Shown: positions 4,328-21,582 of the stretch, piece after piece
Layout: the number at the start of each line of letters is the position of its first letter
How positions within the stretch are numbered: position 1 is the stretch's first letter
IMG/VR virus record: IMGVR_UViG_3300012920_005438
Location: 1-22,516 of that record
Origin: a virus
DNA: 22,516 bases
Strand: one strand, 5' to 3'
Position numbers and translations under genes: made by a program
The notes under the pieces: model-generated
Database searches by the model: none
Told to the model about the DNA's origin: nothing
The model's input: the letters and a program-made list of their open reading frames with translations, nothing else

Positions 4328-5028
4328 TAGCAGTCGTAGATGTCGATAGCTGTATATATCAAGCAGCATGGCAAAGAGAAACTATAGAAGATGCTGTAGA
4401 AAATTATAAGTATCTCGTAGAAAAGAATTGGATTGGTCCTGTATGGGCTGATGAAACTATAGTATACTGTGGTGGTAAAGATAACTTTAGATATAGGCTT
4501 TGTCCTAATTATAAAGCTAATCGTAAAGAAGCACCTGCAGATGCTAAATTATTTAAACCATTAATGAAAGAAGTAGTTAAAAGAGGTTTAGCTATACCTT
4601 CTGATGGTATGGAAGCAGATGATATGGTAAGAATAAAATCTGTAGAGCTTACTAAGAAAGGAGTTGAGCATACAGTTGTCCATATCGATAAAGATTTAGA
4701 TTGTATCGTAGGTAATCATTATAATCCTAGACATGCTAAGTTCTATGATATAGATGAAGATCAAGCCGATCTAAATTACTGGACTCAAATACTTAAAGGT
4801 GATCCAACAGATAATCTTCCTGGATTACCTAAAGTAGGTCCAAAGACTGCTGAGAAAATGCTTGATGGTATTCCTCTTGGTAAACGTAAAGCTAGAGTTC
4901 TTGCAGCATATAGAGCTAAGTTCGGTGTTGTAAATTGGAAAGATAAACTTATGGAAACTGCTAATGGTATTCATATCTTAAGACATAAAGATGATTACTT
5001 TAGTATAGAAAGGAAATTAAATGACTAG
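4324..5028 (+). CDS. 5'-3' exonuclease / flap endonuclease (T7 gp6-like)
   Basis: The 234-residue protein belongs to the FEN/5'-3' exonuclease superfamily. Metal-binding acids are visible in VVDVDS (D6, D8), MEADDM (E97, D99, D100) and HIDKDLD (D122, D124). The helix-hairpin-helix DNA-binding region is GDPTDNLPGLPKVGPKTAEK (159-178), and a basic arch segment is RLCPNYKANRK. An in-frame GTG lies at 4315, but ATG 4324 is preferred because AAAGG (4311-4315) lies eight bases before it and it forms an ATGA overlap with the previous stop. It likely removes RNA primers and degrades host DNA to recycle nucleotides, as T7 gp6 does. It overlaps the GIY-YIG gene by eight bases. Confidence 0.9.
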   Translation: MIAVVDVDSCIYQAAWQRETIEDAVENYKYLVEKNWIGPVWADETIVYCGGKDNFRYRLCPNYKANRKEAPADAKLFKPLMKEVVKRGLAIPSDGMEADDMVRIKSVELTKKGVEHTVVHIDKDLDCIVGNHYNPRHAKFYDIDEDQADLNYWTQILKGDPTDNLPGLPKVGPKTAEKMLDGIPLGKRKARVLAAYRAKFGVVNWKDKLMETANGIHILRHKDDYFSIERKLND

Positions 5029-5725
5029 TAATGTAACTGATCATCAACGATACACAGATGTAGCCATAACTGATGTATCTAAAGTTGATAAGAATGGTTG
5101 GGTAGGAATATCTACACTTGAGCATGGTGAAATAAGATGTAAATCTAATTTACGAACTAAGCTAGGCTTAAAGAAAGAATGGTTTGGTAATTTAACTGTA
5201 TGGGTTAATCCTAGTAATGATACTGTATGTGTAGCCTTTGACCAAAAAGCCTATTTGGCAGATGGAGATAATGCAAAACCTAATGGTCAATGGGAGGTAA
5301 ACTTTCATAATAATCCTTATGAAGCAGAAGGTTTTGTTTATATGATTATTGAAAAGAGTACTGGTAAACGATATATAGGTAAAAAGTCTTATTGGAATTA
5401 CAGTAAGGGTAAAAGAGTAAGACAATCTAATTGGAAGACTTATGCTTCAAGTAGCTCAGATATAGCTAGTAAAGTAGCTGAGAATAAATCTGATTATCAA
5501 TTTATTATGCTACATGAAGCACCAGATAAATCTGCATTAAATTATTTAGAAATCTTTTATCAAATAGATTATGCAGTTCTTACATCAATAAATGAAAAGG
5601 GCGAAAAGATATTCTATAATAAGACTATCGGTAGCGAAAAGTGGATGTTAACAGAGAAATTTATAGGAGTATTCAATGAAACCTTTAACGAGGAATCCGT
5701 TTCACAGATACAATATACCACCTAA
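5021..5725 (+). CDS. GIY-YIG endonuclease with extra N-terminal domain
   Basis: The C-terminal half of this 234-residue protein is a GIY-YIG nuclease domain: GFVYMI (104-109), KRYIGKK (116-122), a WKTYASSSSDI segment (138-148), NYLEIFYQ with likely catalytic E177, and FYNK with N200. The first 100 residues form a separate, strand-rich region not recognised (conserved-looking WVGISTLEHGEI and GNLTVWVNPS). ATG 5021 follows TAGAAAGGA (5006-5014) and overlaps the exonuclease stop. T7 has a Holliday-junction resolvase (gp3) in its replication cluster; this enzyme could fill a host-DNA-degrading or branch-cutting role, or be a homing-type nuclease. Position inside the coupled operon favours a core function. 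Confidence 0.75.
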   Translation: MTSNVTDHQRYTDVAITDVSKVDKNGWVGISTLEHGEIRCKSNLRTKLGLKKEWFGNLTVWVNPSNDTVCVAFDQKAYLADGDNAKPNGQWEVNFHNNPYEAEGFVYMIIEKSTGKRYIGKKSYWNYSKGKRVRQSNWKTYASSSSDIASKVAENKSDYQFIMLHEAPDKSALNYLEIFYQIDYAVLTSINEKGEKIFYNKTIGSEKWMLTEKFIGVFNETFNEESVSQIQYTT

Positions 5726-8394: not shown

Positions 8395-10512
8395 ATGCAA
8401 GATATTCAAAAATACTTAATTGAAAAGATTAGAGGTAATGATCTTGGTGTAAAACCTAGACGTAACCTACAATTAATGCGTATGATTGATAATGAAGGGG
8501 TTGATATGTTAGACTCTTTCATAGATGATATTATTACGCATTCAAGAAAAATAATTCAAAGATGTTTTAAACGAAGTAAAGTTGAAGGTGAAACTCCTAT
8601 TACTCAAGTATCAATGGCTATTGGTAAGTATATAGTTTCTAGCTGGGATAGAGAGAATACTAACTTTAGAGATCATGTTAGAGTTGGTGATCTTATCGTT
8701 GAAGCATTTGTAATGTGTAATTATCTTACTATCTCTGTAGGGCATGTTAAGAGTAGAAAGCCAGTTACTATTCATGCTACTGAAAGATGGGGTGAATTAG
8801 AAGCTATTGCTGGTAAAACTACTTGTATTAGTGCTACACCCATTCCCAAGATAACTACCTTATTTCAAAATAATGGTAAGCCTATTATAAAGACTTGGGA
8901 TAAATCTAAAGAGCAAAAGTTTATTAAATATCTTGATAAGCCATTTATTAAAGCAATAGATAAACTTCAGGCTACTAGATTTGTTGTTAATAAAGATGTG
9001 CATGAAGCAATAAATAATCATTGGGGATTATTTGTTAAGCATGAAATATTTGATGGAGAAGATAAAGCTGAAAATGATAAGCTATATCAAAGACAAGCTT
9101 CAAAGAATAGAGAAATTAAAGAAGTAATGGCTTCAGCAGAGAAATGGTTAGATAAAGAATTTAGTTTTTATGTTGATGCAGACTATAGAGGTCGCCTATA
9201 TTATAGTGAACCTTTCTTTAACTTTCAAGGAGCTGATGTAGCTAGAAGTCAATTACTATTTGCTAAAGGAAAACCATTTGATAGCAATGCAAACTTTTGG
9301 TTAGCAGTTCATACTGCTTGTTCATATAATGAGTCATATCCTATAGATGAAATACCTGATTGGGTTACTACTGATTATAAAGAATTACTTAAATCAGAAG
9401 AGCTAGATAGTATTTCTGTAGATAAAATGACACTTGAAGATCGAGCTATGTGGACTCAAAAGAATATGGATCATATACTTGAATTAGGTGAAATGAAAAT
9501 CATAGCAGAAGAAGCAGAAAAGAATATTGCTTTTCTAGCTTGTTGTATTGAGTGGTTTAAGTTTTGGAAATATAAAGATGATTATCGTATTCAGCTACCT
9601 ATACCTATTGATGGTGCTAATAATGGTTGGCAACACTTAGGAGCTATGTCTAAAGATAGATTAACTGGAGAGCTAGTCGGTCTTATACCTACTAAAACTC
9701 AAAATGATTTCTATGTAAGAGTAGCTAAGAGATTATGTGAAAAGATGCCTGATTGGTTTGAAGAAAGAAATATGCCAATGAAGCATATAAGGAAAGGTAT
9801 CGCTAAACGAGGTGCTATGACTAGAGCTTATAGCTGTGGTCAAAAGAAAATGTCTGAATCAATGTATAGCGATTGTTATCAATATGGCTATACTAAAACT
9901 TACGATATTAATACTTGGGATTGTGATGAGTTAAGCTTTCAGGTCATCAAAGCTATTGAGGAAGTATGTCCTGGACCTTTAGAAACTATGAAGTATCTTC
10001 AACGACTTGCTGATCAAGAGATCTCTAATTGGTATAAGACTTATGGTACAGACAGAGGTCGAGGGATTAAATGGGAAACCGAATCAGGTTTTCCAGTTAT
10101 ATATGAATGTTTTAGAACTAGACCTGCGAAAGTAGATTGCTATGGTTTTAATACTCCTGATGGTGAGATTAGATTTAAGCATGTAATACGAGAGAAGACT
10201 GATATACCTGATAGACGAGGTTTTATGTGTGGCATTAGTCCTAACTTCGTTCATAGTAAAGATGCAGCTCATCTTGCATTAGTAGTTTCTAAATGGGATG
10301 ATGATTTTGCTGCTGTACATGATTCATTTAATGCTCATGCAGATAACATAGAAGAATTAATGGAAATATCTAGAGATGTATTCATTAGTATATATGATAA
10401 AGAAAATTATTATGAAGATATCCCATTCGGAAGAGGCTATAATGGTAATAGACCTACAATAGGTGGGTTAGATGTTAAGCAAGTAGCTAACTCTGATTAC
10501 TTCTTTTGTTAA
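8395..10512 (+). CDS. T7-type single-subunit RNA polymerase
   Basis: This 705-residue enzyme has all core T7 RNA polymerase motifs: DADYRGRLYY (261-270) with a following NFQGAD and LLFAKGKP; motif A PIDGANNGWQH (404-414, D406); motif B AKRGAMTRAYSCG (470-482, K471, Y479); motif C AVHDSFNAH (640-648, H642, D643). The end, SDYFFC, resembles the T7 FAFA foot, so the C terminus is complete. T7 RNAP has 883 residues; the missing length is mostly N-terminal, the promoter-binding part. The Gly after the motif B Tyr is Ser, and the Arg four before the Lys is Lys. A strong host-type promoter and AGAGAGGA precede it, and a terminator follows. It presumably transcribes later genes, including the opposite arm, from promoters not visible here. 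Confidence 0.95.
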   Translation: MQDIQKYLIEKIRGNDLGVKPRRNLQLMRMIDNEGVDMLDSFIDDIITHSRKIIQRCFKRSKVEGETPITQVSMAIGKYIVSSWDRENTNFRDHVRVGDLIVEAFVMCNYLTISVGHVKSRKPVTIHATERWGELEAIAGKTTCISATPIPKITTLFQNNGKPIIKTWDKSKEQKFIKYLDKPFIKAIDKLQATRFVVNKDVHEAINNHWGLFVKHEIFDGEDKAENDKLYQRQASKNREIKEVMASAEKWLDKEFSFYVDADYRGRLYYSEPFFNFQGADVARSQLLFAKGKPFDSNANFWLAVHTACSYNESYPIDEIPDWVTTDYKELLKSEELDSISVDKMTLEDRAMWTQKNMDHILELGEMKIIAEEAEKNIAFLACCIEWFKFWKYKDDYRIQLPIPIDGANNGWQHLGAMSKDRLTGELVGLIPTKTQNDFYVRVAKRLCEKMPDWFEERNMPMKHIRKGIAKRGAMTRAYSCGQKKMSESMYSDCYQYGYTKTYDINTWDCDELSFQVIKAIEEVCPGPLETMKYLQRLADQEISNWYKTYGTDRGRGIKWETESGFPVIYECFRTRPAKVDCYGFNTPDGEIRFKHVIREKTDIPDRRGFMCGISPNFVHSKDAAHLALVVSKWDDDFAAVHDSFNAHADNIEELMEISRDVFISIYDKENYYEDIPFGRGYNGNRPTIGGLDVKQVANSDYFFC

Positions 10513-10811: not shown

Positions 10812-13800
10812 CTAGCTATAATTTCTTGTTATAAATCTTAATACTCTAGTACCATCAGCTAATGTTTCTGGCTTTCTTAATAAGTCTTGATAAGCTTCTT
10901 TTGTAAACGCATTAGAGTTCTTTAACCACTCATTTAACATTGGTGATAATCCCATATGATCATTAATAGAGAAAAACAATTTCTTTAATTGTAATCCTGT
11001 TACCTTTGAACCTTCAGGTTTAAAACCATTTTCAACTGCACGATTCATAAGTATCATATCTCTATCTGATACATTCTGTGCTAAATCTTTTCTTTCTTTA
11101 GCTCGCTTAAATACATCATCAATATAGTTCTGCATAGCTCTATACTTTCTATTTTCTAAAGATAATTCATAAATGCTACTATCTTTTACTTTATCTCTAA
11201 ATATTAATTTAGCTTCATTAATAGCATCTAAAATAACTTTAGATGTTTTATATTGCATATTAACATCTGTAAATGCTTTATTAATTGCTTCTAAATATTC
11301 TTTTACTGATGTAGCATCTACAATGATCGCATCATGCACTGGGATCATATAAGCTGAACCCTCTTGAGGTCGTCTTTTATCGTTGACTCTATTAATTGCT
11401 GTTGCCATTATTCCTGAATCTATATTTTGTATAAGTAAAACTGGAATTTGATTAGATACTTCTTGACCAAAAGGAGTTGGATCTGCAGTTCTCCATTCAT
11501 TAGTTTGATTATCGTATACTCTTTGTCGTTTAGATCTAGACGAACCACTTGGTTTCATTGAACCTAAATTACGTCTAACTAATCCTCTTGATGTAGGTAT
11601 TTCAATCGATTTATTACTTTCAAAATATTCTTTAGAACCCATAAAAATAGTTTCACCTAATGGACCTTTAAATCTAGGTGTTATTCCTACCATTGAAAAT
11701 AATTTTCCAACATTTTTTAATACTTTTTGATGTTTTAAATCTAATGTTAGTGATAATGTTGATCCTATTATTTCATTTAAATCATCTATAATTTCATTAT
11801 CAGTATAATCAGGCAGCATATTACTGTAGCCTTTTAGTCTATCTTTAATTATTTCTCCATATTTTCCATTATAAAAGTTTTCTGCTGTTTCTCTATGAAA
11901 CATATGATACTTTCCATATGATGTTTCCATTAATGGTTGCTTAGATAATTCTTTAAATACACCAACAGCATCTTCTGAACCTTTGTATTCATCAAATATC
12001 TCTAACCAAAAAGATCTTTTATGATCTATTCTAGAACTCCCACCTTTAAATACATAGCCTTCAATGGCTGCTTGAGTATTATCTCCAAATAATTTACGAA
12101 TATCACCTTGAGGAATTATATTATCTTCAGATGCAAATATAAGTCCTGTTCTTTTCATTAGGTTTATATCACCATTTTGAAATGCTTGTATCGCAATTCC
12201 ATTTTGTTTTCCATCAAATTGTGCTTGAGCCCTTGGTGAAAATGTTGTTGCTTTAGGTACAGTTTCAGTCCATACTACATCTTTAGATATTTCCATCATT
12301 TGAACTTCTAATTCTGAAGCTCTTATCTCATCTCCAGCTAGTGTAGCTTCATTATACTCATCTTGTAAAGTTGCTAATTGATTTTCTTCATCGATACTTA
12401 ATATCTTACCCTGTTGAATTAACTGTGGACCTGTTTCTTCTGTATTAGATGCATCATGCCAATTAGCAAAATCAATATATGATTGAAAAATATAATTCCA
12501 ATCTTCTCTACTTCTTAATTGTTCTAATGCAGCATAACCTAACAAATCTTCTTTTGATTTTGCCATAAGTGCATTTAATGCTACTATATTTATTCTTCTA
12601 TTAGATGATAATGCTCTTAGTTCTTTTCCTATCTTAAGCCAATTATCATATGTTGATCTTGCTTCAGGTGTTGCTCTACTTATTACTCTATTTGTAGCAT
12701 CAATTATACTATTAGGTCCAAGATTTGATGTGCTAACACCATTAGTCATCTCAACTGGTAATAAATTTTTTCCTATAACTAATTTCCAACCTTCCATTAT
12801 TTCTTTTTGTTTTGATGAAAGAGGTTGTTTAAAATCAATAACAACTCGTCTTGCATTTCCCATAATGTTTCTAGCCATTTTATCATTTTGAGGATTCATA
12901 ACAGAATTTCTAAAATGAAATCGACCATTAGCTAAAGCATTAAAAGGTTTCATATAAAATACTTTTCCTTTTAATCTATCAGCATCCATTCCAGTTTCAT
13001 ATAGTTGTCTTGCTTTTAATTTCATTTGAGTGTTAGCATGATTAATAGCTGTTTGTGGATTTTCACTTGCTCCTGGATTTTTAATTGCATGATTAAAATG
13101 TTCATTCCATTTTGCTTCATGTAAATCTAAAACTTCAGCTAAAGGATCTACTGAATAAAATTTACTTCTATCAACTCCAGCTTGTTTTGTAGCTAAAGCA
13201 GTAACATCTGCTATGTATTTATTAATTTCTTCTTGCGATTTACCTCTTAAAGCTACATTACCTTGAGCTTGTTCTGTTGCTCCTTGTTTAATTGCTTCTA
13301 ATTCTTGAGGACTTACAGTTCTTTTAGGTGGATGCATTAGCATATCTACAACTGGTCTTTCATTTTTCATTTGAACTGGTCCAATGATATATTCAATAAC
13401 AGATTTTACATAGGTAGTTGCGTTATCTTGAATAGCAAATTCAACTCCTCCTAAATGGGCTTTAGTTTTTCGTTGTATTCTTTGTGTTTTTGCCATTTCT
13501 GATTTAACAGTAACTGGTCCTTTATCTTTAGGCGTATATGTAAAAGGTATTTTTTCACCTTCAGTTATACGAGTAGGTATCATACTAACATCTTCTTTTG
13601 TTCGCATACCTGTTGCCCATAAGACATCTCTTGCAGTATTGAAGTATCTTACTCCGTCTTCGCTTATACCATAATAGTATTCTCCAGTTTCTTCATCATA
13701 CACAGTATCAAAGAAACCAAGATCATTTATTATACCAAATGCCATGCCATCAAATAATGCTGCAACTTTTGGATTAGTATTAACTAACTGATCTCCAGCT

Positions 13801-14765
13801 CCCCCATAATCTGAATAATACTTTCCTACTTTATTAGGGTTTTCAACTAAAGAATTTAATATATTAACTCCTATTCTTCCTCTTAAATAATTAGCATCTA
13901 ATTTTTCACCTTGAGGAATACCTGCTTCTGGAAGATCTATATCTTGACCAGCAAAGAAAGTTGCCATATCGGCATCATCTATTAATGCTTCTTCTTTTCC
14001 TTTTGCAAAAGAAACTTGTTTACGATTAACTTGATCTTGAATTAATCCTAGTACTTCCATTGATAATGCATTAGCAAATCGTCTATTAAATTTTAAAGGA
14101 GCACCAATCTCTCTATTAGGCTGATTTAACATACCCTTTTCTACCATATAATTTTTTAATGACATTGTATCAGGTGTATTATCTGTTTCTAATTGTTTTT
14201 CTAGATTAGGTAATATTGAATTTATTTGTAAACCAGTTGCAATTACTGCATTAACAGTTTCTTCAGGTACTGTTCTTTTATTTTTAAATTTAGCTCTAAG
14301 TGTTGCAGCATCTGTAAAATTATAAAAGTCATCATCAAGATAAGGAGCTGGTGTAAACTCTGTTTGACCTTGTCGTTCAGATTCTGTTAGTTGTGCTCTT
14401 GCTTTCTCGTTATCTACAGGTGCAGTAGCATCTGCAAATGGTAAAAAAGGTCCAGGCATTGCGAGTTTAGTTTTATCTTGAGTTCCTCTTGCTGGTGAGC
14501 CTTCTTTTACTCTTTCAATTAACTTTTCTCTACCAGAAACTCCAAGTCCTTCTTCATCTTTTTGTTGTTCTACTGGTTCAGTAACCCCTAACTGATCTAC
14601 AGGTAATACTGGAGTTGCACCTTTTAATACATTAGTACCTGTTAATTCAGACTCATCAGCACCTATCCTTTGTCTACGTTTATCTTGAATAATATCATCT
14701 GTTTCTTCGACTTTAGGTTGTCCAATTTTATCTATGTTATCAATAGTACTTCTTATCTTTCCCAT
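10812..14765 (-). CDS. Putative virion-encapsidated single-subunit RNA polymerase (N4 vRNAP-like)
   Basis: The 1317-residue protein would usually be labelled an internal virion protein, but it shows the single-subunit RNA polymerase signature in order: ANGRFHFRNSVMNPQNDK (612-629), matching T7 DWRGRVY...NPQGND, with R615; motif A QFDGKQNGIAIQAF (849-862, D851); motif B KELSKQPLMETSYGK (938-952, K942, Y950, G951); motif C MIPVHDAIIVDA (1140-1151, H1144, D1145). All core catalytic residues are kept. About 600 residues precede the first motif, with an acidic, Gln-rich and probably disordered first 150. It sits among ejection proteins, as expected for an RNA polymerase injected with the DNA. AGGAG (14772-14776) supports the start. 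It is unlike the 705-aa enzyme outside these motifs. Confidence 0.8.
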   Translation of the reverse strand: MGKIRSTIDNIDKIGQPKVEETDDIIQDKRRQRIGADESELTGTNVLKGATPVLPVDQLGVTEPVEQQKDEEGLGVSGREKLIERVKEGSPARGTQDKTKLAMPGPFLPFADATAPVDNEKARAQLTESERQGQTEFTPAPYLDDDFYNFTDAATLRAKFKNKRTVPEETVNAVIATGLQINSILPNLEKQLETDNTPDTMSLKNYMVEKGMLNQPNREIGAPLKFNRRFANALSMEVLGLIQDQVNRKQVSFAKGKEEALIDDADMATFFAGQDIDLPEAGIPQGEKLDANYLRGRIGVNILNSLVENPNKVGKYYSDYGGAGDQLVNTNPKVAALFDGMAFGIINDLGFFDTVYDEETGEYYYGISEDGVRYFNTARDVLWATGMRTKEDVSMIPTRITEGEKIPFTYTPKDKGPVTVKSEMAKTQRIQRKTKAHLGGVEFAIQDNATTYVKSVIEYIIGPVQMKNERPVVDMLMHPPKRTVSPQELEAIKQGATEQAQGNVALRGKSQEEINKYIADVTALATKQAGVDRSKFYSVDPLAEVLDLHEAKWNEHFNHAIKNPGASENPQTAINHANTQMKLKARQLYETGMDADRLKGKVFYMKPFNALANGRFHFRNSVMNPQNDKMARNIMGNARRVVIDFKQPLSSKQKEIMEGWKLVIGKNLLPVEMTNGVSTSNLGPNSIIDATNRVISRATPEARSTYDNWLKIGKELRALSSNRRINIVALNALMAKSKEDLLGYAALEQLRSREDWNYIFQSYIDFANWHDASNTEETGPQLIQQGKILSIDEENQLATLQDEYNEATLAGDEIRASELEVQMMEISKDVVWTETVPKATTFSPRAQAQFDGKQNGIAIQAFQNGDINLMKRTGLIFASEDNIIPQGDIRKLFGDNTQAAIEGYVFKGGSSRIDHKRSFWLEIFDEYKGSEDAVGVFKELSKQPLMETSYGKYHMFHRETAENFYNGKYGEIIKDRLKGYSNMLPDYTDNEIIDDLNEIIGSTLSLTLDLKHQKVLKNVGKLFSMVGITPRFKGPLGETIFMGSKEYFESNKSIEIPTSRGLVRRNLGSMKPSGSSRSKRQRVYDNQTNEWRTADPTPFGQEVSNQIPVLLIQNIDSGIMATAINRVNDKRRPQEGSAYMIPVHDAIIVDATSVKEYLEAINKAFTDVNMQYKTSKVILDAINEAKLIFRDKVKDSSIYELSLENRKYRAMQNYIDDVFKRAKERKDLAQNVSDRDMILMNRAVENGFKPEGSKVTGLQLKKLFFSINDHMGLSPMLNEWLKNSNAFTKEAYQDLLRKPETLADGTRVLRFITRNYS

Positions 14766-14777
14766 TTATATCTCCTA

Positions 14778-17700
14778 TTATCCTAATAAAAATTCTTTTA
14801 AACTTCTATTAGGTTTGTCTATAAATTCACGACCTGTAAATACTTTATCTTCAATCACTTCTTGATCAGTTAGTCCTCTAGCAATACCAGCTCTTACTTC
14901 AGGTAATACCGACACAAAAGGAGCTATTTTTAAAGTATTTCTAATTCCTCTTTCAGTTTCTCCTTCTATAAAATCAGCACCAGCACCTAATGCATTACTC
15001 ATTATTCTAGCTGATGGTCCAGCTTCACCTACAATAGAATTAAATAACCACTCAATACCATCATCTCTTTGTGGATATAATGGATAAATAAAATCAGCTA
15101 CTCTTTCATACTGCCCTATTATTCCTGAAGAATAAATAGCTCTTTGAGTATAACCCCATCCATCTAAATAAGGACTTGGCTGACCAAATTTAATTAAGTC
15201 TTTTAAGTATTGAGATGCTCCTCCTAATGCAAGCATTGTTACTATTAAAACAAATGTATCATATTTCATTTGCTTAGTGCCTTTTATTATTCCTCTATTC
15301 CATAGCTTTGGTACAATATTAGCAGTGAATGTACTAATAAAACCATTAAACTGAGTCATTAATTGATAATGAGGGTCTTGAAAGAATAAAGGTCTATTTG
15401 CAGCTTGAGGATTTTGAATTCTCTCATTAACAAATCTATATATTCCTGTTTCAATTTGATCATTAATTTCAGTTTGAATTTCATTCATTCTTTGTCTTAA
15501 TGTTACAACTTTTCTGTTCTCACTATTAGGATATTTTTTAGCTAAAGCCTCTAAAGAAGCTTGTCTAGGCGAAGGATCTTTTGCATATTTCTTTTCATCT
15601 ATTGTTGTATAGTCTTTAGTATCTGTAATATCTAGTAATGCATCTCTATCTATTTCTTTATGATCTTCTAACATATCATAGAGATGCTGTACATTTATTC
15701 CTAAATCATTTAAACTTAAAAATGATTTCATTTCAAATTCATTAAATTTTTCTGTATCAAAGACTTCTTCAGTTTCTCTTCTGCCTTGTGCAGTTACTAC
15801 TTGTACCATTTTCTTAGGTGCAGTTTGTAAATCATCTAAAGCACCTCTAATATAATCAACAGCAAAGCCTGCATTCATTCTTCTTTGAAATTGAGTTAAT
15901 TGTTTAATACCTATTAACTTAAAAAAGCTTTCATGTAATTTTAAAAAGGCAATATCTCTTTCACCAGTAGCTAATCGATCTACAACTGCATTTTGAGCAT
16001 AAGATAAACCAGACCTATCTAACATCTTAGCCATTCTATTTACTTCTTTTGCAGCCTTATCATCCCAAGCTCTAGCTATATTTTTAACTAACTTATCAGT
16101 AGCTGTTTTATATTCTGTATCATTATTTAAATTAAAATAAATCATAGCTGTTTCTGGTATCGAAGAAATAGCTGATAAAGGTAAACCAGCAAATATAGAT
16201 AAGCTAGTGAAATATCTGTTTAAAGCTGCTAATTTAGGATTTTCAATTCTATTAAAGTTACCATGTGTTGAATCAATAATTGCTTTTGTATACCAAGCAA
16301 ATTGATTAATGTCATCCTGTGTCATCTTATTAGGACCGACTTTTAAATTTTCTTCTTGTTGTAACTCTTTAAATAGTTTATCTAACTTCCAACCACCTTC
16401 ACCAAAATACTTTGTAGATGCTGCATACTTAGCACCTTCTACTTGTGTTCGATTTAATGATTCAAATATATTTCTACTAGCAAATTCTGAAAAACCATCC
16501 ATTTGAGAAGTATCTAACATTCCTTTAGTAAAAGCTGTTGGGTTCATTTTAACCCCACCTACTGCTGAATACTCTTTTCCAAAAGAAGTTTCACCTCGAT
16601 AAGCTATGCTTTCAAAAGTTTGTTGTACAAATTCTTCTCCAGTTACTGAATCTCTTGCTTGCACAAAGTTTTTTCTTAACCAATCTTTAAATCCAGCAGG
16701 GTTTTTTCTTACTGCATTATAATCAAATCCCATGGCTTTCCACCAATAATCATCATCATATGAAAATTGATTGTTAACTCTATCGCCATTCTCTCTACTC
16801 CATTCATTAGCCATCTCACGATAAATAGATTCATAGGAGTTTCTAAACATATTGCCTATCTTACCTAAGTTCTCTATCTTTGCATCAGCATTTTTTCCAT
16901 ACTTTGAAGTATCAATTTCATTTTTTCTTCCAGCTTTCCATTTAGCGTAATCGCCACTACGACCAAACTCAATTAACTCAGCAGAAATTGCTTTTACTCT
17001 TTTAGAATTTAAAGTCTTATAGCCATACATATCTGCAATCATATCTTCATCTAATTCATTTTTAAATTTAGATACAAGACTATCTTGATATTGTTTAAAG
17101 TTCTTTCCTGAATGATATACTCCAGTAGTAACTTGACCTATCAATGCAAATATTTTTAATGCTGTTTCACTTTGCACTAATTTTTTCATTTCAATAGCTG
17201 ATTTTTCTGCTGCGTTAACTAATCTTCCTAACCCTCGTATTGTTGCATCAAAATATTCAGTTAAATCATTGTTATTCTTAAAAAAATTTCTTACTCCTCG
17301 ATTATTCTTTTTCCAAAGATCAGCTGCACTAGTAAAAAACCCTCGGTCTTGTGCATCAGAATCAGCTTTATCTCTTAAATTATCTTGCTTACTATTTTTA
17401 AAAGGTTGATTAACAATTTCTCCAGTAGTCTTAACATAATTACCCTTGTTTAATTCTTTAACTTTTCTATTCTCTATAGGGCGTACTCTATTAATATCAT
17501 GGTTTAGTAATGAAGAACCTACCATTTGATTTTTTAATTGAGTATATGTATTAGTTGCTGTACTAATTGGTCCACCTAAGAACGCTCCAGCTAATCCAGC
17601 ATTGATTAATCGATTCTTAACTTCATCAGGCGTAAATTCTGTTTCAGAAAAGTTTTGAGCAGCATACATTTGAATTCCTTCTTGTAGTAATTCAGTGCCA

Positions 17701-18974
17701 CCTTCACCTACAGCTCCAGCTGCAGTTGCCTTAGCTACATTAAGACCTGAAAACTTAGCTATATCATCAGGGTCTAATCTTAGTAGCCCACGCATTAATT
17801 CTGCTTTTTGAGATGAAATAGCTTTACCTATTAATATTCTTGATTGAGATTCAGTTATACCTTCTTTCTTTGCATATGCTTTAACTAATCTATTTAAACC
17901 TGCTTGGCTTAATAAAGTAGATGCAGGCAATAAAGCTTGCATACCTATTCGATCTAATGTTGCTGCTGCTATACCTGTTGTAGTCGCTGCAAGAAATTGA
18001 GGCATGCCTTTTTCGCCTTCCATTTCATTCCAGACTTGACCAGCATATATCATTGATATCGGAGCATAAGCTGTTGCAACACCTGCTGCTGGACCTAACA
18101 AAGCAGACATTGGTACTGCAGCTGCAAAAGATCCGAATGTACCTATAAGATAGGGAGCAGACATAACTGCATTGTTAGTAATCCATTGCCAACTATCCCA
18201 TACATTTTCTATATCTTCGTAATTATTTAAAGTATAAGGAGCATCTGCCATTCTAAAGCGAGCATTAAGAACACCTTGATCTCCCAAGTTTTCTAGCATT
18301 TCAGAATCAGTAACTTCACCTATAGCATTAAGATAACCCCAAAATCCTTCTTTGAGTCCATCCCATCCTTTACCCCATGATTCAGATATTTGATTAGAAA
18401 AACCTTTAGCTTCATTAGTTAAAGTTCTACTTTCATCTCGATGAGCTACATCATAATGGATATTAGGATTAAATCCAGCTTCATTAACTGCTAAGCCTTT
18501 AAAAGCTAAACCTTCTTTTACTAATTTATCATTTATTTTTTTAGAAGTTTCAGCATAAGGATCAACATAATTATTATATGTCTCTCTCAAAGCACCCATT
18601 TCGTTCTTAGCAATCAAAGCTTCAGGAGTTGTAAATTTACTTACTTCAGCTATTCCACGAGCAGTTAATACACGATCTAAGTATTGACCTTCTTTATTAA
18701 TTAATTGAACTAGCTTTCTGCCAGCTGAATCTACTTCACCAGTATCTACTATTATATTAAAGCCACCTTTATTTTGTACATCAATAACAGCATCTGTTTG
18801 GCTCGGACCTAAAGTATGACCCCCTTTATATTTAAGTTCTCCATCGTCATTATAGAATCGTTCTACTTCTCTTGTATCGTAATCTTTTAATCTAAATGAT
18901 TCGCCTTTATCATTTGTAAAAGTATCACCATCAATCCAAGTATATGTTTCATTATTTGAATCTAAGAATTTCAT
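14778..18974 (-). CDS. Ejection/internal virion protein with N-terminal SNase-like nuclease domain
   Basis: This 1398-residue protein begins with a staphylococcal-nuclease-like domain (about 8-115): WIDGDTF (D15, D17), FRLKDYDTRE (R28, D33, T34, E36), and DSAGRKLVQL with R86. These align with SNase D19/D21, R35, D40, E43 and R87, so the active site looks complete. Hydrophobic, small-residue-rich segments follow at about 268-350 and 410-475, then a long charged helical body, a strongly hydrophobic stretch at about 1239-1257 and a Gly/Pro-rich C terminus. The size, position beside a transglycosylase protein and membrane-prone segments resemble T7-type core proteins that form the DNA-ejection channel. 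The start follows AAGGA (18984-18988), and the gene begins one base after the upstream stop. Confidence 0.8.
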   Translation of the reverse strand: MKFLDSNNETYTWIDGDTFTNDKGESFRLKDYDTREVERFYNDDGELKYKGGHTLGPSQTDAVIDVQNKGGFNIIVDTGEVDSAGRKLVQLINKEGQYLDRVLTARGIAEVSKFTTPEALIAKNEMGALRETYNNYVDPYAETSKKINDKLVKEGLAFKGLAVNEAGFNPNIHYDVAHRDESRTLTNEAKGFSNQISESWGKGWDGLKEGFWGYLNAIGEVTDSEMLENLGDQGVLNARFRMADAPYTLNNYEDIENVWDSWQWITNNAVMSAPYLIGTFGSFAAAVPMSALLGPAAGVATAYAPISMIYAGQVWNEMEGEKGMPQFLAATTTGIAAATLDRIGMQALLPASTLLSQAGLNRLVKAYAKKEGITESQSRILIGKAISSQKAELMRGLLRLDPDDIAKFSGLNVAKATAAGAVGEGGTELLQEGIQMYAAQNFSETEFTPDEVKNRLINAGLAGAFLGGPISTATNTYTQLKNQMVGSSLLNHDINRVRPIENRKVKELNKGNYVKTTGEIVNQPFKNSKQDNLRDKADSDAQDRGFFTSAADLWKKNNRGVRNFFKNNNDLTEYFDATIRGLGRLVNAAEKSAIEMKKLVQSETALKIFALIGQVTTGVYHSGKNFKQYQDSLVSKFKNELDEDMIADMYGYKTLNSKRVKAISAELIEFGRSGDYAKWKAGRKNEIDTSKYGKNADAKIENLGKIGNMFRNSYESIYREMANEWSRENGDRVNNQFSYDDDYWWKAMGFDYNAVRKNPAGFKDWLRKNFVQARDSVTGEEFVQQTFESIAYRGETSFGKEYSAVGGVKMNPTAFTKGMLDTSQMDGFSEFASRNIFESLNRTQVEGAKYAASTKYFGEGGWKLDKLFKELQQEENLKVGPNKMTQDDINQFAWYTKAIIDSTHGNFNRIENPKLAALNRYFTSLSIFAGLPLSAISSIPETAMIYFNLNNDTEYKTATDKLVKNIARAWDDKAAKEVNRMAKMLDRSGLSYAQNAVVDRLATGERDIAFLKLHESFFKLIGIKQLTQFQRRMNAGFAVDYIRGALDDLQTAPKKMVQVVTAQGRRETEEVFDTEKFNEFEMKSFLSLNDLGINVQHLYDMLEDHKEIDRDALLDITDTKDYTTIDEKKYAKDPSPRQASLEALAKKYPNSENRKVVTLRQRMNEIQTEINDQIETGIYRFVNERIQNPQAANRPLFFQDPHYQLMTQFNGFISTFTANIVPKLWNRGIIKGTKQMKYDTFVLIVTMLALGGASQYLKDLIKFGQPSPYLDGWGYTQRAIYSSGIIGQYERVADFIYPLYPQRDDGIEWLFNSIVGEAGPSARIMSNALGAGADFIEGETERGIRNTLKIAPFVSVLPEVRAGIARGLTDQEVIEDKVFTGREFIDKPNRSLKEFLLG

Positions 18975-18975
18975 A

Positions 18976-21582
18976 TTACTTTTTCCTTGGTTTATATAAA
19001 GCTAATGCTGCTGGTTCGTCTCTTAGAAAGTTGATTGCCCACCAACCAAATCCACTAAAACCTTTATCTTCAGGAGCACCAGAGTTAAATGACTCTTTTA
19101 ATTTAGGATCTGCTTTTGTCCATATTTCTTTTAATAACTTCCATTCTTGCCTATAATCTGCAGCATCTGTACTACTCTGTTTAATCATTTCATTAATAAC
19201 AGCAAAGTTTTCAGTATTTAATTTTTTATTTTTATTTTCACCAGTGCCACTATCATTAAGATCATTAAAAGATATTATCTTATCAGTCTCTAATGGCATT
19301 TTAACCATATTATAATAAGTTTCTAAGGATTGAGGCTTATCAAATCCTTCTTCTCCTTTATTATCTAAATGTTTTCTAAAATCTTTATAGTAAAGTTCAA
19401 TAGCTCTTTCCATAAACTTATTCATATTGCTTCTATCTTTAGGATCAACACCAAACTTTATCATATCTTTATAAAGTAAATCAGCAGCTTCTGCAGCTAA
19501 TAAAGGTTGAGGTGCTCTTATTAACTCATCACCTTCTTTATTATTGTTAAAAGTTAATTCAGTTGCCTTAAGACTTTTCATGTATTTATCTGTAATTTTT
19601 TCTATATCCATTTGATCATCATCATAGGTAAATATTCTACCTTTCAATGAATCAATCGTATATTGATTACCACCTCTATCTACGAGTCTATATTGACTTT
19701 TTCCAATTTTAATCTTTTCCATTGGTCCATAGCCTCTTACCCACACTCTAGAACCAGTGCCAGCATCAAGAATACCTGTACCTATTCTTTCTAAATCATT
19801 TAAATCACCTGAATATCTATATTTCATAAGAGATCTTTTAGTATAATTTTTAAGATTATCTTTATTAGTAACAAACTTTTGTCTTGCAGCTGATTGAGCA
19901 TCTACTCGTTTAATATATTGTTTAGTTGCATACTGCAAAGAAGCACTATGATTATAGCCAAATGCTCTAGAACCTAAATACATCAATGATAATCTAGCTA
20001 ACTCTTCACCACTAAACATATCTTTAAACATATTAGAAAACCATCTAGTCATTTTATCTTGAAGAGTCTCAGGTTGTTTTGCACCTTCTTTCTCTACATC
20101 ACTTGGTTTTCTTTTATCTAAATCATTAGATACAGCAGGATCAACCTTATCTTTCATACTATCTAATATTTCTGCTGCATTAGTTAATGCTTTAACTGTA
20201 GGTTTTTCTGATAATAATTTATTTTTCTTTTCAGTTAATGATTTAACTATATTAGAATCATTCTTATATAATTCTATTTGTTTATCAATTTTATTTACTT
20301 CAGCATTAATTTTATTTTCTTCTTCTATTTTAATATTTTCTTTTATTTTAATTTGATCTTTATTATATGCATCATTCTGTTTATTAGCATTCTTAAAAGC
20401 TTCCATGTCTCTATCATACATTTCTTTTGTATAATTTTCATCATTGGCTATTCTATCAGCTAATTCTTTAGGTATATTAGAATCTATCCTATTAGGATTA
20501 ACAGATACAACATAACCAAGCGAATCTAATTTAACATCAGGTCCATAAAGCTCTATATTCTTTTTTCTTCTTTCTTGTGCATCATCATATGTAGTTCCAA
20601 ACAAAGAAAAATTACCAGATCTATCATAAAAACTATCAGGAAAAATCTTATCATCTTTTTTATCTTTAGCTCCTGTAGAAGCCATAGCAGACATCATTCC
20701 AGACTTTGTTGGTGTCATATCAAATGTCATCATAGGGACTTCTTTTATTGCTGATTTTACTTTATCTGGATATTCTTTACCTCTTGGTCCAAGTTCTTCT
20801 ACTCCTCCTATTGATTTTAAAACATTACCTACACCTGAATGATATGATTGTAAGACTTGGTCTAAATTAAAATTAGGATTTTTATTAGCAATACCTTGTA
20901 AATATTCACCAGCAAATTTTCTAGATATTTCAGGATCAAATCGATCTGCTAATGATATAGGCTTTACACCATATCCAGGATTTAAAGCTGTTGCTTCTGT
21001 AATTTGATATGGTCCTGCAGCTCCAGCTTCTGAAATTTTATTTGGATCTCCTCCTGATTCTGTCATCATTACTGCATCTATTATTTCTGGTGTTATTTTA
21101 ATTCCTTGATCAGCATAAGTAGGTACTCGACCACCTTCATTAAATCTAATAGCAAATGTTTTTAAGAAAGCATTTTTAAAACTATCATAGTCCATTCCTA
21201 ATGATGGATTTGCTATTCGATTTTGATATTCTTCAAACTTATCAAGAATTGTGCCTTCAGAAATATTAGGGTTAGGTATTGAATACATTTTACCATCTGA
21301 TCCACTAGATGCGTAAGTCGGTATTGGACCACCTTGTTTATCTTGAATATCTCTACCTATTTCATTAAGTTTATCTAACATAGGTTGAACTCCAGGAATC
21401 CTAGAAGCTTCTGCATTAATAACATTTTCACCAGCAGTTAACCAAGCTGGATATTTGTCTGTACCTTTAGGTCCAGGTTGAAATGCTGGAGGTATCTCAT
21501 TCATTTCAGGAACATTAGCTTCAAATTCATAAGATAACATATTTCCAAATCTATCTTTTTGTGTAAACTTTTTTAAGTGCAT
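18976..21582 (-). CDS. Virion protein with lytic transglycosylase domain
   Basis: The 868-residue protein contains a soluble lytic transglycosylase domain at about 160-275: MMTESGGDP (catalytic E175), GAAGPYQITEA (187-197) and LQSYHSGVGNV (244-254). It would locally open peptidoglycan during DNA entry, as the gp16 N-terminal domain does in T7. Before it lie a structural-protein-type segment, WLTAGENVINAEAS (47-60), and two copies of a GGxxPTYA motif (94-101, 150-157). A long Lys/Glu/Asn-rich, probably helical region (about 380-510) follows, then a C-terminal half of unknown fold. The start is set by GGAGGT (fwd 21591-21596). It shares one base with the upstream stop and is followed immediately by the nuclease-ejection gene. 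Confidence 0.85.
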   Translation of the reverse strand: MHLKKFTQKDRFGNMLSYEFEANVPEMNEIPPAFQPGPKGTDKYPAWLTAGENVINAEASRIPGVQPMLDKLNEIGRDIQDKQGGPIPTYASSGSDGKMYSIPNPNISEGTILDKFEEYQNRIANPSLGMDYDSFKNAFLKTFAIRFNEGGRVPTYADQGIKITPEIIDAVMMTESGGDPNKISEAGAAGPYQITEATALNPGYGVKPISLADRFDPEISRKFAGEYLQGIANKNPNFNLDQVLQSYHSGVGNVLKSIGGVEELGPRGKEYPDKVKSAIKEVPMMTFDMTPTKSGMMSAMASTGAKDKKDDKIFPDSFYDRSGNFSLFGTTYDDAQERRKKNIELYGPDVKLDSLGYVVSVNPNRIDSNIPKELADRIANDENYTKEMYDRDMEAFKNANKQNDAYNKDQIKIKENIKIEEENKINAEVNKIDKQIELYKNDSNIVKSLTEKKNKLLSEKPTVKALTNAAEILDSMKDKVDPAVSNDLDKRKPSDVEKEGAKQPETLQDKMTRWFSNMFKDMFSGEELARLSLMYLGSRAFGYNHSASLQYATKQYIKRVDAQSAARQKFVTNKDNLKNYTKRSLMKYRYSGDLNDLERIGTGILDAGTGSRVWVRGYGPMEKIKIGKSQYRLVDRGGNQYTIDSLKGRIFTYDDDQMDIEKITDKYMKSLKATELTFNNNKEGDELIRAPQPLLAAEAADLLYKDMIKFGVDPKDRSNMNKFMERAIELYYKDFRKHLDNKGEEGFDKPQSLETYYNMVKMPLETDKIISFNDLNDSGTGENKNKKLNTENFAVINEMIKQSSTDAADYRQEWKLLKEIWTKADPKLKESFNSGAPEDKGFSGFGWWAINFLRDEPAALALYKPRKK

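Follow-up and report, generated by a model that had tools for sequence, protein, structure and literature searches.

The stretch of viral DNA that we analyzed (the window; 22,516 nucleotides, positions 1 to 22,516 of the IMG/VR record IMGVR_UViG_3300012920_005438) carries a cassette in which a protein without assigned function is followed by an 868-aa protein with a transglycosylase domain, a 1398-aa protein that bears a staphylococcal nuclease-like (SNase) domain at its N terminus, and a 1317-aa protein. The gene for the SNase-bearing protein (18974..14778) has an ATG start and an intact reading frame. The features on which our analyses centered are the following.

18976..21582, (−): upstream cassette protein, 868 aa, with a lytic transglycosylase (SLT) domain at residues 159–261 (Pfam SLT, E 7.8e-15)
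14778..18974, (−): whole ORF, 1398 aa, comprising the SNase domain and a LUZ24 gp50-like virion-protein core that starts at about residue 157–200 (PHROG 6958 and family profile)
18579..18974, (−): SNase-like nuclease domain, residues 1–132 (PDB profile matches, AlphaFold model and fold match, invariant active-site residues)
18921..18932, (−): DGDT motif, D15-G-D17-T18, equivalent to SNase D19, D21 and T22 (D, D and T invariant in 51/51 representatives)
18867..18893, (−): R28, D33 and E36, equivalent to SNase R35, D40 and E43 (R and E invariant in 51/51)
18717..18719, (−): R86, equivalent to SNase R87 (invariant in 51/51 representatives)
10812..14765, (−): downstream cassette protein, 1317 aa, with a predicted single-subunit RNA-polymerase fold at residues 560–1235 (11061–13088; hhalign, Foldseek, VIA)
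8395..10512, (+): separate T7-like RNA polymerase, 705 aa, facing the cassette (Pfam RNA_pol, E 5.3e-53)

Two other genes of the window have counterparts in the Roseobacter phage CRP-7. One is a nucleoside 2-deoxyribosyltransferase-like gene (324–749, +; Pfam 29.5 bits against a cut-off of 30), and the other, which CRP-7 and some relatives have in common, is a GIY-YIG (SegE-like) endonuclease gene (5021–5725, +) whose product is possibly a homing or branch-resolving enzyme.

An SNase domain with six invariant positions

An earlier note on this DNA, made from its letters alone, had placed an SNase-like nuclease at 18620–18974 and described it as fused to the N terminus of a T7-type ejection protein. 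The motifs and residue numbers that it quoted, R28 and E36 among them, are present as given: IDGDT holds D15 and D17, FRLKDYDTRE holds R28, D33 and E36, and SAGRKL holds R86. Its interval covers residues 1–118 only; the fold continues to about residue 132 (position 18579), where we placed the end of the domain because an SNase-like C-terminal helix lies at residues 117–132. A frame or assembly artefact was ruled out since intact homologues occur in ~70 distinct sequences.

Single-sequence comparisons gave borderline scores, which may explain why such proteins stay unannotated. Against the Pfam SNase family (PF00565; curated cut-off 21 bits) the full protein scored 15.9 bits and the domain alone 21.1 bits, phmmer found no match to the single domain in the PDB, and no relatives came up when IMG/VR was searched by pattern with just the domain; finding them took the full protein and a family alignment. 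The alignment of the domain contains no stretch of sufficient conservation for a search by pattern. When a profile of 17 N termini was compared with the PDB, the best 60 matches listed were all SNases (E 4.2e-5 to 6e-4), in alignments spanning IDGDT, FRL..D..E, D..GR and L...G.A. Structure prediction against SNase, set as a test in the earlier note, produced an OB fold: the AlphaFold model of the domain has a pLDDT of 87, its best 50 Foldseek matches in the PDB were all SNases (probability 1.00, best E 1.9e-4), and VIA-align paired it with SNase at a Z of 9.4 and an rmsd of 3.9 Å over 115 residues with 24% identity. Foldseek gave modest TM-scores (about 0.45) and the VIA rmsd is high, so we base the fold assignment on both aligners together with the profile and the residues. 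Chance resemblance to SNase was ruled out by profile, fold and residue conservation, and these profile and model comparisons indicate that residues 1–132 are a genuine SNase (OB-fold) domain with an intact active site.

IMG/VR was scanned twice, giving ~100 partly overlapping loci, and conservation was assessed in 51 non-redundant representatives (<90% identity) with a median pairwise identity of 26% over the domain. Exactly six positions in residues 1–160 are invariant among these representatives, D15, D17, T18, R28, E36 and R86. They correspond to SNase D19, D21, T22, R35, E43 and R87, all of them active-site or DGDT-motif positions, and the chance that D21, R35, E43 and R87 would all land in six random positions is ~6e-7. 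The survey thus uncovered no loss of these catalytic residues in relatives, and the proposal that the metal ligands and catalytic arginines of SNase are kept was borne out, with D17, R28, E36 and R86 unchanged throughout and the D40 ligand an Asp (D33) in the window protein. Across the 51 representatives the residue equivalent to D40 is Asp in 24, Asn in 16, Glu in 8 and Ser in 3, and its frequent loss (non-Asp in 27/51) argues against simple Ca2+ gating in all members. Two glycines, G96 and G107, are retained in 50 of the 51.

The domain is under purifying selection, as omega in close pairs is 0.07–0.19 for the SNase domain, with similar values for the core. It is also co-inherited with the rest of the protein, since distances computed for domain and core agree (Mantel r 0.82, 0/999 permutations). 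The invariant residues, low omega and agreement between domain and core are together as expected of a working enzyme that is passed on as a permanent component of the larger protein.

The virion-protein-like core and the carriers of the domain

The 1398-aa protein matches PHROG 6958, a virion structural protein group (E 1.1e-21), and 16 of 17 family members match it as well. In the best stretch, profile positions 256–340 pair with residues 412–496, and extrapolating this pairing puts the profile start near residue 157, with the SNase part outside. The family profile scored 136, 125 and 88 bits for proteins of the Pseudomonas phages tf, JB8 and LUZ24, respectively, and the JB8 protein links to 123 phage records, mostly of LUZ24-like Pseudomonas phages and some of Vibrio phages. 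No match to T7 gp15/gp16 was found when the family profile was compared with PDB sequences. Fusion to a large protein of the internal-virion cassette was upheld, and the T7-type label is better narrowed, as the core is homologous to LUZ24 gp50/tf_51. In the LUZ24 record gp50 is labelled 'phage particle protein'; nine particle proteins of LUZ24 have been identified by virion MS/MS, in a passage that does not name gp50 (PMC3517423).

SNase is the only enzyme domain recognised in the 1398-aa protein, of which residues 160–1398 were compared by sequence alone. The designation as an ejection protein is suggested by the link to LUZ24, the size of the protein, its hydrophobic stretches and the gene order, and by analogy the SNase-bearing protein is probably packed in the particle as an internal virion protein. 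Three loci encode longer versions of 1681–1803 aa (L004:8001-13412, L005:8001-13046 and L008:5745-10910), with large mid-core insertions at about window residues 540–740.

Among 73 distinct homologues, the SNase domain is present in every marine member whose N terminus can be read. The carriers are mostly uncultured marine viruses of bacteria; CRP-7, whose gp34 has it unannotated, is the one cultured relative in which we found the domain. In the few homologues that lack a complete domain, either the protein begins where the contig ends (L061, L029), the domain is encoded by an ORF of its own (L069), or the phage is one of Pseudomonas or Vibrio. The tf, JB8 and LUZ24 proteins begin almost at the core and score below zero bits with the SNase profile, which also found no match in two further records, those of a Vibrio phage and Pa223. 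Because these SNase-less relatives start near the core, the domain looks, on sequence comparison, like an N-terminal addition gained in the marine CRP-7-type lineage, although it may instead have been lost in the LUZ24-like lineage. The sole match in cellular genomes was on a 20.7-kb contig of a Dehalococcoidia metagenome-assembled bin (L105; CALGTL010000115.1), where the cassette protein is 25% identical; a prophage origin is unsupported, and this is probably a phage contig that was binned with Dehalococcoidia.

Polymerase and nuclease genes of SNase-bearing phages

A feature absent from the earlier note, the RNA-polymerase fold of the next gene's product, bears on the mechanism. The 1317-aa protein matched the family of the window's T7-like polymerase in hhalign (probability 92.5, E 4.8e-7). 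The AlphaFold model of its polymerase-like part has a pLDDT of 76, the 50 Foldseek matches listed for that part are all mitochondrial or T7 RNA polymerases (best E 7.6e-9), and VIA gave a Z of 17.2 over 424 residues. A polymerase-like gene adjoins or follows the SNase gene in 88 of the 89 loci with enough flank, overlapping loci being counted apart. Based on the modelled fold, the 1317-aa protein is a candidate for a virion RNA polymerase of the N4 type, in phages that encode a T7-like polymerase as well, and we infer that it is packaged. The protein keeps conserved catalytic-looking Asp residues, D851 and D1145, and its counterpart in CRP-7 is gp33 (L023:15649-19356). A group I intron was also detected in one relative (L011:16779-16985, −; Rfam RF00028, 96.6 bits), within a 334-bp insertion in the T7-like RNA polymerase gene; the arrangement recurs in L017, and the insertion is missing from L010, a close relative of L011.

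Eight records, comprising seven IMG/VR records of 51–59 kb and CRP-7, have the SNase domain together with both polymerases, whereas JB8, LUZ24 and tf have neither the SNase domain nor any match to either RNA-polymerase profile. The phages also differ in that a T7-type endonuclease I was found in all four SNase-less relatives (JB8, LUZ24, tf and Vibrio IME234) and was absent from all nine SNase-bearing records compared, among them the window; some of these records, such as the 22.5-kb window, are incomplete. In some SNase-bearing records a GIY-YIG nuclease is present in place of endonuclease I. This difference in gene content, which amounts to a single evolutionary contrast, would fit a virion-borne nuclease having taken the place of one that is expressed later and acts on host DNA. 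Branch resolution is another function of T7 endonuclease I, however, and the absence of the enzyme may thus have nothing to do with host DNA.

Possible roles and known systems

The reading that we favor, and to which we give about an even chance, is that the SNase is carried in the virion, is ejected with the genome and attacks host nucleic acid early, chiefly the chromosome. The domain would have become attached, probably in a single event, to the N-terminal end of an internal virion protein of the LUZ24 gp50 type in an ancestor of the CRP-7-type marine podoviruses. Packed in the particle, the protein would be ejected along with the genome, the transglycosylase protein and the single-subunit RNA polymerase, and the nuclease would cut host nucleic acid, chiefly the chromosome, within the first minutes. 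Destruction of host DNA would be affordable because the phage brings and encodes its own polymerases, and nucleotides from the cut DNA could be reused. The phage's own DNA may be spared by masking of the active site in the particle and by passage of the genome through an ejection channel with the nuclease facing outward, to which metal gating may add. Some considerations weigh against this reading. SNase requires Ca2+, of which the bacterial cytoplasm contains little, and roughly half of the family members have a residue other than Asp at the D40 ligand. In addition, a non-specific nuclease beside packaged DNA would be a hazard.

In a different setting, the nuclease would stay in the trans-envelope part of the ejection machinery and act on nucleic acid in the periplasm or on the cell surface, degrading, for example, the DNA of a competing phage. 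Ca2+ is plentiful in the periplasm, the N-terminal domain precedes hydrophobic stretches, and the transglycosylase of the cassette must act there; nevertheless, we consider this quite unlikely, as a clear substrate is absent from that compartment, the Ca2+ ligand is changed in about half of the family and the link with the polymerase genes would be unexplained. An action on phage DNA, in which the nuclease replaces T7-type endonuclease I in packaging, branch resolution or end trimming at assembly or ejection, would account for SNase-bearing records being without an enzyme that in T7 also resolves branches. We regard this as unlikely, because SNases are not known to be structure-specific resolvases, the GIY-YIG nuclease of some SNase-bearing records could fill this role, and an enzyme for trimming would have no need to be fixed to a protein inside the virion.

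Enzymes with the SNase fold can cleave both RNA and DNA, and the domain might be an effector against host defences or plasmids, or attack host RNA as an RNase at entry. Injected RNase and DNase domains are indeed a known theme (PMC5512222). Yet PADLOC returned no match for the protein or the domain, so that its assignment to the known defence or counter-defence proteins is unsupported, and the domain occurs in every member, when counter-defence genes would usually be expected to be patchy; this role therefore appears decidedly unlikely. The loss of the D40 ligand in 27 of 51 representatives might also suggest a domain that does not cut and serves DNA binding or virion assembly only, but a pure binding role would leave unexplained why the only invariant positions are those of D19, D21, T22, R35, E43 and R87, and we find it highly improbable.

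If the favored reading of an early attack on host nucleic acid is extended to the phages as a group, CRP-7-type marine podoviruses might possess a kit of ejected SNase and virion RNA polymerase that allows early breakdown of the host genome and transcription free of the host polymerase, with endonuclease I replaced. We put this forward tentatively, as it is rather unlikely to hold as a whole. Should the SNase-bearing protein enter the cell, host nucleic acid would be open to attack before any phage gene is expressed, and the probable virion RNA polymerase encoded beside it provides a rationale for so early an attack. The finding also raises the question of how a non-specific nuclease can be kept close to the phage's DNA inside the particle, and the presence of the unannotated domain in the cultured phage CRP-7 makes tests practical.

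In comparison with known systems, the domain shares with staphylococcal nuclease/thermonuclease (PF00565) the OB fold, the DGDT motif and the R35, E43 and R87 equivalents, in order and spacing. It differs from those SNases in being part of a 1398-aa phage protein that scores below the Pfam cut-off in full, in having a longer region between E43 and R87, and in that the D40 ligand is not family-wide. LUZ24 gp50/tf_51 (PHROG 6958) share the core, with homology that extends from around residue 200 as far as the C terminus, and the late-gene position, but the LUZ24, tf and JB8 proteins are without the SNase domain and their phages without matches to either RNA-polymerase profile. An SNase label is also attached to A0A6J5NQ80, a 1342-aa protein of an uncultured Caudovirales phage, which is automatically annotated as 'Staphylococcal nuclease (SNase-like), OB-fold' and which the domain model matches in Foldseek (E 5.4e-3).

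Our search of the open-licence literature gave no relevant paper on SNase in combination with ejection proteins, internal virion proteins, polyvalent proteins or podoviruses. In the papers searched we did not find any family in which SNase is fused throughout to an internal virion protein and keeps its active site invariant, in phages that probably also have a virion RNA polymerase. Parts of this picture are already known, namely an SNase on an unrelated virion protein, injected nuclease-type domains and virion-carried enzymes. An N-terminal SNase-related domain was noted in 2007 on the BtI1 homologue of the 0305phi8-36 baseplate hub gp147 (PMC2147016); as described there, BtI1 is a phage-like element of Bacillus thuringiensis, and the hub is unrelated to the virion protein studied here. 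Polyvalent proteins are large phage proteins with nucleic-acid enzymes for which injection has been shown or proposed (Iyer et al. 2017; PMC5512222). The main text of that paper does not contain the word SNase, and N4-like phages are the only ones for which the paper describes virion RNA polymerases. Compared with polyvalent proteins, the SNase-bearing protein has one recognised enzyme domain.
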